The notes beneath the pieces are model-generated. The model had not been told where the DNA came from. It saw only the letters and a list, made by a program, of their open reading frames with translations, and searched no databases. The translations under genes were made by a program, and so were the position numbers. A DNA stretch of 64,000 nt from NCBI GenBank assembly GCA_035530615.1, contig DATKUL010000001.1:496001-560000 (forward strand), given 5' to 3'. Of the stretch, positions 26,983 through 31,203 are shown one piece after another. Position 1 is the stretch's first letter, and each line of letters opens with the position of its first letter. The stretch is from Candidatus Paceibacterota bacterium. GTDB lineage: Bacteria; Actinomycetota; Actinomycetes; Nanopelagicales; Nanopelagicaceae.

Positions 26983-29352
26983 GTGCCTAAATCCTGGACA
27001 GATGATGCTCCCGCCCCAGTTGCCTTGCAGGAACATGCCCATCTCAATGATCCCTTCATGTACAAAATCAAGCGATTCTTTCTGGGAAACCCTCTCAATC
27101 GCCACACTCTTGGGCACCAGCGCTTAGCCAAGAGGTACGCCCTGGGGATCCTTTCCTCAGACTGCATCTCATCATCTGCTTATGGCAGCGAACAGATCTT
27201 GATCGCGCTCCTGCCTGCTTTCGGATTGGCCTCGTTTGCACTCATGATGCCGATGACAGCGGTCATCATCGGGATTCTTACCATCATCACGCTCAGTTAT
27301 CGCAATGTTATTGAGGTTTATACCAAAACGGGTGGTGCCTACATTGTCACGCGAGATAACTTTGGTCCAGGAATGTCGGTTGTTGCTGCGGTTGCCCTCA
27401 TGCTTGATTACATTGTTACGGTCGCCATTCAATCAGCCGCAGGTGTGGCAGCGATCATTTCAACTTTCCCCTCGTTGCATCCCGGCAAGGTGTATATGAC
27501 GTTGGGAATTATTGTGCTTATTACTTATGGCAACCTTAGGGGTGTTAAAGAAGCAGGAAAGTCTTTCGCAATGCCGACCTATCTATTCGTTGGCGCTATG
27601 GCCGTGGTATTCATTACCGGACTTTATAGAGTATTTAACGACACCCTTCCCGTCCTCTCTACTGACGTGCCGGGCACGTACCCAATCGGTGAGGCGCAAG
27701 GGTTGCTCACTTTCAGCGCCATCTTTATTCTCCTAAGGGCATTCGCAAATGGCGGATCATCCCTTACAGGACTGGAAGCGATCTCAGATGGGGTTGCTCT
27801 CTTCAAAGTCCCTGAAGCCCGAAATGCACGTCGGACTCTCGTCATCATGAGTTCTATTTTAGGAACTTTAGTCCTTGGCGTTTCTTGGTTCGCCCAAAAA
27901 ATTCACGCAATGCCATTTGAAACTGGAACTCCGACTGTTATTTCGCAGATTGCCAAAGCTGCTCTGGGAGATGGACCTGGCGGGAAAATTTTCTTTATCT
28001 TTGTTCAAACTGCAACAATGTTAATTCTTTTCGCGGGGGCAAATACAACCTATAGCGCCTTCCCAATTCTCTGTAACTTCGTCGCAACCGATGGGTATCT
28101 GCCACACCAGCTCACAAAGCGCGGACACCGTCTCGCGTTCTCAAACGGCATCATCTTCTTGGCTAGTTCGGCCATCGTTCTGATTCTCATCACTGGTGCG
28201 GGCGTAGATCGTCTTGTAGCGTTCTACGCACTTGGCGTCTTTACGGGCTTTACCTTGGCTGGATTTGGAATGGCAAAGCACGCGTACCGGCATCGTCTAG
28301 GTAGCTGGAAACTCAAGATATTTATTAATGGCCTCGCTGGCGGCGTTTCGCTTATCGTCGTAATCGTTTTCGCTATTGTCAAATTTACTGAAGGTGCATG
28401 GCTGGTAATCACAATTGCTCCCATCGCCGTCTATTCACTGCTTCGTCTCAACCACCAGTATCAACGCGAGCAAGCAGCTCTTAATTTGAAAAGCGAGGAG
28501 TCACGAGCGACATCTATCAGCCGCCACGATGTGACCATTCTTGTAGACAGCGTCGATGTCGCAACAGTGGGTGCCGTTCGATATGCAAGAAGTCTCAATC
28601 CGCATTCACTTTCTGCGGTTCACTTTGTCATTGACGATCAACGTGCAGAGGAGATCAAGAAGACTTGGCAAGCAACCCATGCACTTAATGACGTCATGCT
28701 TGAATTAGTCGATTGTCCCGATCGCCGGTTACCGAATGCCGCTATGGATTACGCGATCCGTTCAACGGCGTCACAAGACGTTGAACTAACTCTCCTGCTA
28801 CCCCGGCGCTCATATGCTCCGTGGCTCGGGAAACTACTCCACGATCAGACGGCTGAAGAAATTGCCCGACCTATCTCCCAACTCCCACGTGTGGTAGCCA
28901 CAATTATTCCGTTTGATGTCGCCAAAATTATTTCGGATAAGGAAGTTGTTGTTCACGAACCACACGCTCCCGCATCACCAGCAGAATCGGCATCTGCAAA
29001 GAAGGAAGCGCTAACGATTCCAAAGTTGAAACCAGCTACCGCGGTTTCTTTCAAAAATAACGAGCCGGTAAGCCACTACTCAGAAAAGATCCTGCCAATC
29101 GGCAAGATCACTTGGCGCAGTAGAGCCCACGTCAAGGGCCGAGTAACTTCAATTCGCACCGCCCCCAGGGATTCAGCGCCAATCGTCGAAGTAGAAATTT
29201 GGGATGAGACCGGGGGAGTCACTTTGCAGTTCCTCGGTCGACGCGAAATCGCAGGTCTTGATGTTGGATCGCAACTACTTGCCGAAGGTATGGTCGGTGA
29301 GACGGAGGGCTCGCTGACAATTCTTAATCCGTCATACGAAATCATTATTTAA
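26983..29352 (+). CDS. KimA/APC-type permease fused to a C-terminal OB-fold domain
   Basis: A 789-residue fusion. Residues about 40-500 form a 12-helix APC-superfamily permease with the KimA/KUP-like hallmarks ALGILSSDCISSSAYGSEQI, NVIEVYTKTGGAYIVTRDNFG and NLRGVKEAGKSFAMPTYLFV; potassium is a plausible substrate. A soluble region (about 510-640) resembles a universal-stress-type fold. After a linker rich in Ala, Ser and Lys, the last 85 residues are an OB-fold (ITWRSRAHVKGRVTSIRTAP, LQFLGRREIAGLDVG, LTILNPSYEI). That OB-fold protein is normally a separate gene beside such permeases in Actinobacteria. The start is GTG 26983 with a GGGGAGAG site. No riboswitch is evident in the 129 bp upstream. 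Confidence 0.85.
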   Translation: MPKSWTDDAPAPVALQEHAHLNDPFMYKIKRFFLGNPLNRHTLGHQRLAKRYALGILSSDCISSSAYGSEQILIALLPAFGLASFALMMPMTAVIIGILTIITLSYRNVIEVYTKTGGAYIVTRDNFGPGMSVVAAVALMLDYIVTVAIQSAAGVAAIISTFPSLHPGKVYMTLGIIVLITYGNLRGVKEAGKSFAMPTYLFVGAMAVVFITGLYRVFNDTLPVLSTDVPGTYPIGEAQGLLTFSAIFILLRAFANGGSSLTGLEAISDGVALFKVPEARNARRTLVIMSSILGTLVLGVSWFAQKIHAMPFETGTPTVISQIAKAALGDGPGGKIFFIFVQTATMLILFAGANTTYSAFPILCNFVATDGYLPHQLTKRGHRLAFSNGIIFLASSAIVLILITGAGVDRLVAFYALGVFTGFTLAGFGMAKHAYRHRLGSWKLKIFINGLAGGVSLIVVIVFAIVKFTEGAWLVITIAPIAVYSLLRLNHQYQREQAALNLKSEESRATSISRHDVTILVDSVDVATVGAVRYARSLNPHSLSAVHFVIDDQRAEEIKKTWQATHALNDVMLELVDCPDRRLPNAAMDYAIRSTASQDVELTLLLPRRSYAPWLGKLLHDQTAEEIARPISQLPRVVATIIPFDVAKIISDKEVVVHEPHAPASPAESASAKKEALTIPKLKPATAVSFKNNEPVSHYSEKILPIGKITWRSRAHVKGRVTSIRTAPRDSAPIVEVEIWDETGGVTLQFLGRREIAGLDVGSQLLAEGMVGETEGSLTILNPSYEIII

Positions 29353-29368
29353 ATAGAAAAATCCTTGG

Positions 29369-29455
29369 CGGTGGCGGTGGGATTTGAACCCACGGTTGAG
29401 TTTCCCCAACACACGCTTTCGAGGCGTGCTCCTTTGGCCGCTCGGACACGCCACC
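29369..29455 (-). tRNA. tRNA-Ser (anticodon CGA)
   Basis: An 87-nt class II tRNA on the minus strand. Acceptor GGTGGCG pairs with CGCCACC, discriminator G. The anticodon stem CACGC/GCGTG encloses CTCGAAA, anticodon CGA (codon TCG). A long variable arm and T-loop GGTTCAAATCC are present. No repeats or foreign genes surround it, in contrast to the other two tRNA loci. Confidence 0.95.
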
Positions 29456-29474: not shown

Positions 29475-29936
29475 CTAAATTCCTTTTCGCTTCTCCTGAA
29501 AAAAAGTAGCCAGCATCTGCGCGCACTCCCCCGCGAGAACGCCGGAAACGACCTCTACTCTATTGAGCGCTCTGGGATCACGCAAAATATCCCAGACCGA
29601 ACCTACCGCACCAGCCTTCTCATCCCACGCACCGAAAACAAGCTTCGCCATCCGCGACTGGGCGATTGCTCCGGCACACATCGCACACGGTTCGAGAGTG
29701 ACCACGAGGGTGTGAGCATCTAAGCGCCAATTTTCAAGAGACTTGCCTGCCTTACGCATCGCAACGATTTCCGCGTGGCCACTCGGATCGGAGTTCAATT
29801 CCCTTTCGTTGGTACCCGTCGAAACTACCTCACCAGACGAATTGAGGATTACCGCTCCCACTGGAACATCATCGGTATTTATCGACGAACTCTTGGCGAG
29901 ATCAATCGCTATCCGCATGGCAGCTTCGGTGTTCAT
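29475..29936 (-). CDS. tadA: tRNA-specific adenosine deaminase
   Basis: Deaminates A34 to inosine in tRNA-Arg(ACG). The 153-residue protein has zinc ligands in HAEIVAMRKAG (with catalytic glutamate) and PCAMCAGAIAQSR, the cytidine-deaminase-fold signature, and ends in a basic tail. The neighbouring gene encodes the actinobacterial TadA-associated protein. Assignment is firm. Confidence 0.95.
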   Translation of the reverse strand: MNTEAAMRIAIDLAKSSSINTDDVPVGAVILNSSGEVVSTGTNERELNSDPSGHAEIVAMRKAGKSLENWRLDAHTLVVTLEPCAMCAGAIAQSRMAKLVFGAWDEKAGAVGSVWDILRDPRALNRVEVVSGVLAGECAQMLATFFQEKRKGI

Positions 29937-29956
29937 TTAGCAACTGTAATGCGAGA

Positions 29957-30013
29957 AAAATGTGTGAGGTGACAGATTGTGCTCTTTCTTTTAATCTGGA
30001 ACTCACACATTTT
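29957..30013. promoter_or_regulatory. 12-bp spaced inverted repeat between tadA and its neighbour
   Basis: AAAATGTGTGAG (29957-29968) and CTCACACATTTT (30002-30013) are perfect inverted repeats, 33 bp apart. They fill most of the 86-bp gap between the TadA-associated gene and tadA. The structure could be an operator, an attenuator or a terminator before the tadA promoter; there is no T-run on the minus strand. Confidence 0.5.
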
Positions 30014-30022
30014 CGAGCATGC

Positions 30023-30481
30023 TCAGATGTCAACCAGTTGACGAAATTCTTCTCCAAAACCGAGACGAGTGGCGATCGCATCCAATTGTTCATCCGGGAA
30101 CAACTCGGCATCGTCGCAGAGTGCAGAGATCTCCATATGGTTCATGCCAAGATCGGCCAGAATGTCTAAGTGACCCATCGGTAGAGGTTCGTCGTCCTCC
30201 TCAGGAAATGGAAGATCGGAGAGCTCGATAAATTTGGCACCGACTTCATAGTCAATTGCACAAGTCGCATCGCTCATGAACATACTTATGTGAGATCCAA
30301 GGACTCGAATCAAAATGAAAAACTCCTCGTCAATAGCCAGCAGCGCAATCGCCCCACCGTTCGTACGCTGACTCTTTAGTTGATCAATAATGTGCTCTAA
30401 ATCATATGGATCATCTAACTGCGCAAGGGTCCATCGACCATCTTCGTGCCAGGCGGCCACTGCTATGTCATCTTGGGTCAT
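30023..30481 (-). CDS. tRNA adenosine deaminase-associated protein
   Basis: A 152-residue acidic protein of the actinobacterial family found beside tadA (TIGR03941-like). It begins with [16 protein letters not shown] and carries the acidic segment [20 protein letters not shown] and, near the C-terminus, [14 protein letters not shown]. The role is unproved; physical association with TadA is suggested by conserved gene order. It is transcribed ahead of tadA on the same strand but separated by an 86-bp gap containing an inverted repeat. It is divergent from upp. Confidence 0.85.
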
Positions 30482-30564
30482 TGCGGCCTCCCTATTTCAT
30501 GAGTATCCCTGGTTGCATAGTGACACTCATTTCGCCGGAAGGAAAGCCCTGTAAGGTAGGAAAC

Positions 30565-31203
30565 ATGAAAGTCCACGTCGCAGATCACCCACTTATCTCG
30601 CACAAATTGACCCTTTTACGCGACGAGAACACGGACTCTCCAACCTTCCGAAGACTTGTTGAAGAACTTGTGACATTGCTCGCCTACGAGGCGACGCGCG
30701 ATGTGCGCACTAAAACAGTTGAGGTGAAAACACCGGTCGTACTCACGCAAGGCATCAAGATGGCTGGCCCAACTCCACTCGTCGTACCGATTCTCCGTGC
30801 AGGGCTTGGAATGCTAGAAGGTATGGTCCGTTTAATCCCAACTGCCGAGGTCGGATTTCTTGGAATGGTCAGAAACGAAGAGACTTTGGAAGCTAGCACT
30901 TACGCCAATCGGCTTCCCGATGATTTATCTGGGAGACAGTGCTTCGTTCTGGATCCAATGCTGGCAACCGGGGGAACACTGGTAGCAGCCCTCAATTACT
31001 TAATCGATTTGGGAGCGACAGATATCACCGCGATCTGCATTATCGCGGCACCCGAAGGAATTGCTCATATGGAGCAAGCGTTTGAGAACTCCACCGTACC
31101 AATAACAATTGTTACGGGAGCTCTCGATACGAAACTAAACGAAAATGGCTACATCGTTCCGGGTCTTGGTGACGCGGGCGACCGACTTTACGGAGTTGTA
31201 TAA
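30565..31203 (+). CDS. upp: Uracil phosphoribosyltransferase
   Basis: Salvages uracil to UMP using PRPP. The 212-residue protein begins at ATG 30565 after an AAGGTAGG site. It has [21 protein letters not shown] at the N-terminus, [16 protein letters not shown] in the core and the PRPP-binding motif [12 protein letters not shown]. Earlier in-frame starts lack homology. The malic enzyme gene begins one base after its stop, so the two are co-transcribed. Confidence 0.96.

Follow-up and report, generated by a model that had tools for sequence, protein, structure and literature searches.

The window, a 64,000-nucleotide stretch of a 2.16 Mb genome in three contigs (G000), carries at positions 26983–29352 a real gene that joins a KimA-type importer and an OB-fold domain in one protein. 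The gene is present in a single copy in this genome and is read as one uninterrupted frame of 789 amino acids (Table 1). Our comparison of related genomes indicates that the OB protein is most likely the dedicated partner of KimA, covalently attached here, and we consider it probable that the product is a KimA-type K+/H+ symporter whose OB-fold partner became a C-terminal domain that regulates transport. The sequence-based parts of this explanation are the fold, the K+ site, the intact frame, the old fused lineage, the OB homology and the joint loss of KimA and OB. Both parts of the protein belong to known families, and neither their pairing nor their fusion was found in the literature; domain-architecture databases may list the architecture. 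The whole words ‘KimA’ and ‘OB-fold’ were not found together in the open-access literature searched, and papers on K+ uptake in M. tuberculosis, searched by term, yielded no Rv2690c (Rv2690), TrkH or Rv2694c.

The fused gene and its domains

The start region of the fused gene is conserved among same-genus relatives, and a tRNA-Ser gene (window 29366–29455) follows its stop codon. The gene is flanked by an aldehyde dehydrogenase gene on one side and by tadA, a 152-residue open reading frame and upp on the other, and these neighbours are kept in most relatives of the genus and in several other genera of the family, with window 29475–31203 forming part of the kept neighbourhood. No Rfam element was found at the fused gene, the window yielding tRNA and SRP RNA only, and a scan for promoters and terminators gave a chance-level result.

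Table 1 Features of the fused KimA–OB gene, in window positions
Feature	Position	Strand	Details
Fused KimA–OB gene	26983..29352	+	GTG start, 789 codons, stop 29350–29352
Putative ribosome site GGGGAG	just 5' of 26983	+	purine-rich GGGGA-like stretch common to same-genus relatives
Transmembrane domain, ~residues 25–500, LeuT/APC fold	27055..28482	+	K+-site D60, Y67, T146, T262, E265, Y415
KimA cytosolic domain, ~residues 512–650	28516..28932	+	changed pocket motif H620-D621-Q622-T623; B. subtilis KimA has HNQS
Linker, ~residues 651–700	28933..29082	+	predicted disordered, fast-evolving
OB-fold domain, ~residues 701–789	29083..29349	+	motif D-E-T-G ... F-L-G-R-R-E-I-A-G ... N-P-S-Y

By homology and predicted fold, the fused protein is a KimA-type (KUP family) K+/H+ symporter, in which an APC/LeuT-fold transmembrane domain precedes the KimA cytosolic domain. 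The Pfam family AA_permease_2 covers residues 64–465 (80.8 bits, cut-off 27). Among solved structures, residues 27–581 match B. subtilis KimA in a phmmer search (E 1e-94; the sole single-sequence match), and a profile search extends the KimA match to residues 27–646 (E 1.7e-157). No NCBIfam family was assigned to the fused protein. Its AlphaFold model, a monomer like all of our structure predictions, has a mean pLDDT of 77.5 and contains the transmembrane helices and the cytosolic domain; in a VIA fold comparison, which covered the KimA part only, three KimA entries scored Z 46–51 and the next row Z 36. The same transmembrane and cytosolic domains and the same K+-site residues are found in B. 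subtilis KimA (KUP family; PDB 6s3k, 8b70, 8b71), which stops after the cytosolic domain, whereas the fused clade has an extra linker and OB domain. The region that the sequence-only reading called universal-stress-like is KimA’s own cytosolic domain, described as PPAT-like in the available text of PMC6994465.

The C-terminal part is assigned to the OB fold by a match to PF01336 above the curated cut-off (residues 717–788; 29.1 bits, cut-off 27, E 9.4e-7; 34.0 bits when this part is searched alone) and by a predicted six-strand barrel at residues 714–788. When predicted alone from 56 aligned OB domains, it reaches a pLDDT of 89.3. Foldseek matches it to the OB domains of RPA, CST, PolC, RecG and the Asn/LysRS enzymes. 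With the RecG wedge (PF17191; PDB 1gm5) it has the barrel in common (Foldseek TM 0.71, rmsd 2.4), but unlike RecG the fused protein has no helicase attached and stays below the PF17191 cut-off of 23, at 14.9 bits for the whole protein and 20.0 bits for the OB domain alone. Among the 56 OB domains, PF01336 is matched by 44 and the RecG wedge by 10. An hmmsearch of the OB domain against the PDB returned RecG at E 0.014–0.035, amid chance matches such as ubiquitin, and the standalone OB proteins by themselves gave no clear PDB match. The OB domain that had been placed in the C-terminal 85 residues is thus confirmed as such, with an extent better given as about 75–90 residues (strands 714–788); the linker described as low-complexity is likewise present, at roughly residues 651–700 with a pLDDT of about 40.

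An old fused lineage beside a split cluster

Fused relatives are widespread. A match is present in 57 of 60 relatives, full-length frames without stops occur in most genomes of the window genome’s family (f1), and fused proteins are present in several other families of the class in the 196-genome class sample. Outside the class, full-length fused forms were found in five genomes of the 246-genome phylum sample (G432, G451, G423, G441 and G383), with another fused form (L139) recognized when 20 phylum-sample loci were read. Together with the 789-codon open frame, these relatives bear out the claim of a single-frame permease–OB fusion. That two genes were joined by a frameshift or an assembly error, the event named beforehand as refuting the fusion, or by readthrough can be dismissed as extremely improbable: nothing in the window supports it, and the fused frames in independent assemblies are stop-free at 43–85% identity. 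Dozens of other assemblies contain fused relatives at full length, and on their strength we reject frameshift or assembly error. In G017, one of two fused copies (L019, G017:C85) carries a frameshift around residue 630 that breaks it, through sequence error or decay. A metagenome-assembled contig titled Streptomyces griseus (L032) has an 80% identical fused gene with family-type neighbours; its organism name looks wrong.

Conservation was judged on identities alone because dN/dS was mostly saturated. In eight relatives the transmembrane, cytosolic and OB parts are 61–93% identical, as compared with 27–50% for the linker; the OB domain is conserved as well as the transporter while the linker drifts.

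In genomes with the split form, the gene order is dut, OB, DUF3159, ceoC–ceoB on the opposite strand, KimA, a TRAM methyltransferase and acn; the window genome’s own copies served to check the identities of dut, DUF3159, ceoC, ceoB and the methyltransferase. We take the dut–OB–DUF3159–ceoC–ceoB–KimA cluster to be present in mycobacteria and streptomycetes, and M. tuberculosis Rv2694c and Rv2690c to be the standalone OB and KimA, respectively. A profile–profile comparison of fused and standalone OBs (probability 99.9, E 9.7e-32) and the cluster order uphold the view that the OB is normally a separate gene near KimA-type permeases in Actinobacteria; that fused and split forms both exist in related genomes was also found. 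The standalone protein is homologous to the fused domain and has the same motifs, D-x-[ST]-G, F/W-x-G-R-R-x-I-x-G and N-P-x-Y, the G-R-R positions being kept in 46 of 50 fused rows and 23–25 of 25 standalone rows. Unlike the fused domain, it is a separate gene with its own N-terminal segment and lies on a different branch of the OB tree.

The window genome retains the cluster (C2, L044) as dut, DUF3159, a YwiC-like gene, ceoC, ceoB, the methyltransferase and acn, but has neither KimA nor OB in it. The interval between dut and DUF3159 could be read in 23 of the 37 genomes of the family, and holds no OB in 21 of the 23. An OB is found there in G024 and G033, which are also the only two genomes to have a cluster KimA, and one of the 21 (G029) has neither a KimA nor an OB match anywhere. 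In gene-content terms, the family lost the cluster KimA and OB genes together and retained dut, DUF3159 and ceoBC. In G047 the fused gene occupies the usual cluster place of KimA, with no OB left, and in G056 it adjoins a complete split cluster. DUF3159 is found in 59 of 60 relatives and therefore does not track KimA and OB. CeoB–ceoC and DUF3159 remain together where KimA and OB are gone, at L044:8046–10777 in the window genome, at L116 in G029 and at L122 in G058. DUF3159 may be a membrane partner of the TrkA-type CeoB/CeoC pair, the window genome being without TrkH.

The association of KimA and OB extends through the class. Among the 196 class-sample genomes, 166 have both, 9 have KimA only, 3 have OB only and 18 have neither, with KimA scored as present at a best E below 1e-30 and OB at E below 1e-15 (G159 and G228 fall on the weaker side and were scored absent); the two-by-two table was built from per-genome rows, five OB-less genomes being identified by subtraction. 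The two genes are thus jointly present or jointly absent in 184 of 196 genomes (Fisher p 4e-16, kinship ignored), and it is because of this that we regard the OB as most likely dedicated to KimA. All 18 genomes without either gene belong to just four family codes (f17, f20, f23 and f35). At least one of the KimA-only genomes (G204) has a divergent, long-branch KimA outside the cluster, and in one OB-only genome (G040) the locus stops at a contig edge. Of 20 KimA loci outside the class, 5 are fused (L134–L137, L139), 7 encode the OB separately within the same stretch (L138, L143, L144, L145, L147, L152 and L153) and 8 have no OB in view by profile, one of these (L141) with a weak tblastn piece at its end. 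At L138 one base separates the KimA stop from the OB start, in fusion order, and in four loci outside the class the fused gene adjoins ceoBC.

Phylogenies place the two forms apart. In the KimA tree, 53 fused-clade rows (50 fused, 3 without an OB) are separated from 21 cluster KimAs, and 34 family rows form one clade; in the OB tree, which is built on few columns and is weak at its deep forks, 24 of the 25 standalone OBs of the class group in a clade of their own (support 100) apart from the fused OBs. By these trees, the fused proteins are an old KimA lineage in its own right; members occur in other classes of the phylum as well. Most simply read, KimA and OB have long been paired, with each KimA lineage keeping its own OB. 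That KimA took up the cluster OB recently in the window genome is rejected, as the fused KimAs and most fused OBs are old lineages of their own.

Several loci depart from the common architecture. In L102 (G196:C141) two tandem fused-clade KimA copies have no OB, and the same genome carries a fused copy (L103) and a standalone OB. In other classes, the KimAs of L143–L148 and L151–L153 (for example L143:4307–6727) reach at least about 800 residues and match the cytosolic-domain end of the profile twice; they probably carry a tandem pair of cytosolic domains.

Potassium site and c-di-AMP pocket

According to the available text of PMC6994465 and PMC10284832, B. subtilis KimA uses D36, Y43, T121, T230 and E233 for K+ binding or H+ coupling. 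In this numbering, the full set including Y377 is present in the window protein and in 34 of 34 family-clade rows, with 15–16 of 16 among the other fused rows. A search of the window genome found a TrkA pair and no TrkH, KdpA or Kup, with controls positive in 11, 5 and 6 of 14 named genomes, respectively. Because none of these three was found, the fused KimA may be the main K+ importer of this genome, as judged against TrkH, KdpA and Kup only.

B. subtilis KimA is inhibited by c-di-AMP, which blocks exit from the inward-occluded state, as stated in the available parts of PMC10284832. Its R337 contacts the ligand. No DAC-domain protein was found in the window genome or in any of 36 family relatives, whereas a DAC is present in 23 of 23 other genomes of the class; all five searched outside-family relatives with the fused gene (G042, G045, G047, G056 and G059) have one, and controls were positive in 11 of 14 named genomes. 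The window bacterium thus seems not to make c-di-AMP.

The pocket has changed as well. At R337, V457, H579, N580, Q581 and S582 the window protein has H, E, H, D, Q and T, so that only H579 and Q581 are kept. As compared with B. subtilis KimA, the fused clade has three replacements in or beside the pocket: all 50 fused rows carry D at N580, where all 21 cluster KimAs have N, all 50 carry E at V457 and 49 of the 50 carry R at F568; the alignment is uncertain near P479 and V506 of the B. subtilis protein. At position 337, all 16 fused rows from beyond the family and 19 of the 21 split rows have R, but within the family the residue is H in 16 rows, R in 13, K in 4 and N in 1, a few of these 34 rows being named contigs whose genomes lay outside the DAC search. 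In these alignments the arginine has drifted where c-di-AMP is missing, and H620, D621 and the OB domain stay conserved; the pocket and the OB in the family therefore seem to serve something other than home-made c-di-AMP. Since R337 is kept in all 16 fused proteins outside the family, other parts of the fused clade may still be under the control of c-di-AMP.

The role of the OB domain

The joint loss, the synteny and the separate, co-inherited lineages suggest that KimA and the OB work together, which sustains the proposed link between transporter and OB as a functional one. We lean towards control of transport as the role of the OB, somewhat ahead of even chances; assembly or docking of other proteins is a minor possibility, a role linked to nucleic acid is less probable still, and a vestigial or other role is improbable. 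Under the regulatory explanation, the OB would be a module that docks on the cytosolic-domain dimer, held by a flexible tether of 50 residues, and governs gating between the inward-occluded and open states in much the way that c-di-AMP governs it in B. subtilis KimA; fusion would lock the OB one-to-one to the importer. In the family, the controlling ligand would not be home-made c-di-AMP; it may be a different small molecule, with a nucleotide the most likely, or a nucleic acid on the OB face, or there may be none. KtrA and KhtT, named as RCK_C-type regulators of K+ transporters in the available text of PMC10284832 and PMC10117811, offer a working analogy of a soluble domain or subunit controlling a K+ transporter; unlike these, the fused protein has no RCK_C fold, and its OB is joined to the carrier itself. 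Counting against a partner role are the KimAs without a detectable OB in 9 of 196 genomes and in B. subtilis, the OB without KimA in 3 of 196, the OB-less fused-clade KimAs (one in L053, two in L102, inside or beside the clade) and the decayed OB motif of four fused proteins (L100, L101, L103 and L104), whose genomes (G096, G227, G196 and G187) all retain a standalone OB.

Of the other explanations, one makes the OB an adaptor through which the orphan TrkA-type CeoB/CeoC pair is recruited to KimA. The gene order speaks for it, ceoBC adjoining KimA and OB in the class cluster and fused or KimA genes in other classes, as does a window genome with a TrkA pair and no TrkH, KdpA or Kup; against this, ceoBC and DUF3159 persist without KimA and OB (L116 and L122), and this persistence suggests a different task for ceoBC, perhaps together with DUF3159. 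We regard the adaptor as rather unlikely. About as unlikely, and marginally less favoured than the adaptor, is an OB that binds nucleic acid, such as RNA near the membrane, with the link to KimA serving localisation or co-regulation and not gating. Such binding would fit the PF01336 and RecG wedge matches among the 56 OB domains, the nucleic-acid-type fold neighbours and two nearly invariant arginines, but OB domains also bind proteins and small molecules (available text of PMC3896448), the RecG wedge family stays below its cut-off for the window protein, and a permanent covalent tie to a membrane carrier would be odd for a nucleic-acid binder. The nucleotide sensing proposed with the fusion, taken as a second c-di-AMP site on KimA, is very unlikely: the inhibition of B. 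subtilis KimA, the kept R337 outside the family and the DAC in the five searched fused-gene relatives speak for it, yet the OB is well conserved in a family where no DAC was found, its fold matches are of the nucleic-acid type, and N580, V457 and F568 are changed in 49–50 of 50 fused sequences. For the window organism and its family, c-di-AMP as the sensed nucleotide was rejected, given the missing DAC and the pocket residues replaced clade-wide.

A bolder version of the regulatory explanation, which we think clearly less likely than not, is that a family that has lost c-di-AMP signalling runs its only recognisable K+ importer by a built-in OB sensor, with a rebuilt pocket and an OB that reads another nucleotide or RNA, and that the separate OB found throughout the phylum is the missing, unnamed regulatory subunit of KimA. 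If true, the separate OB would have this regulatory role in mycobacteria and streptomycetes as well.

In the cases studied, c-di-AMP acts on K+ uptake by KimA. A small OB protein that accompanies KimA across the phylum, and in one old lineage has become part of the same protein, suggests a control element of the carrier that was not found in the literature, and the pairing makes a cluster of mycobacteria and streptomycetes testable. In the window genome’s family, the fused protein would offer a natural case of KimA working without home-made c-di-AMP.
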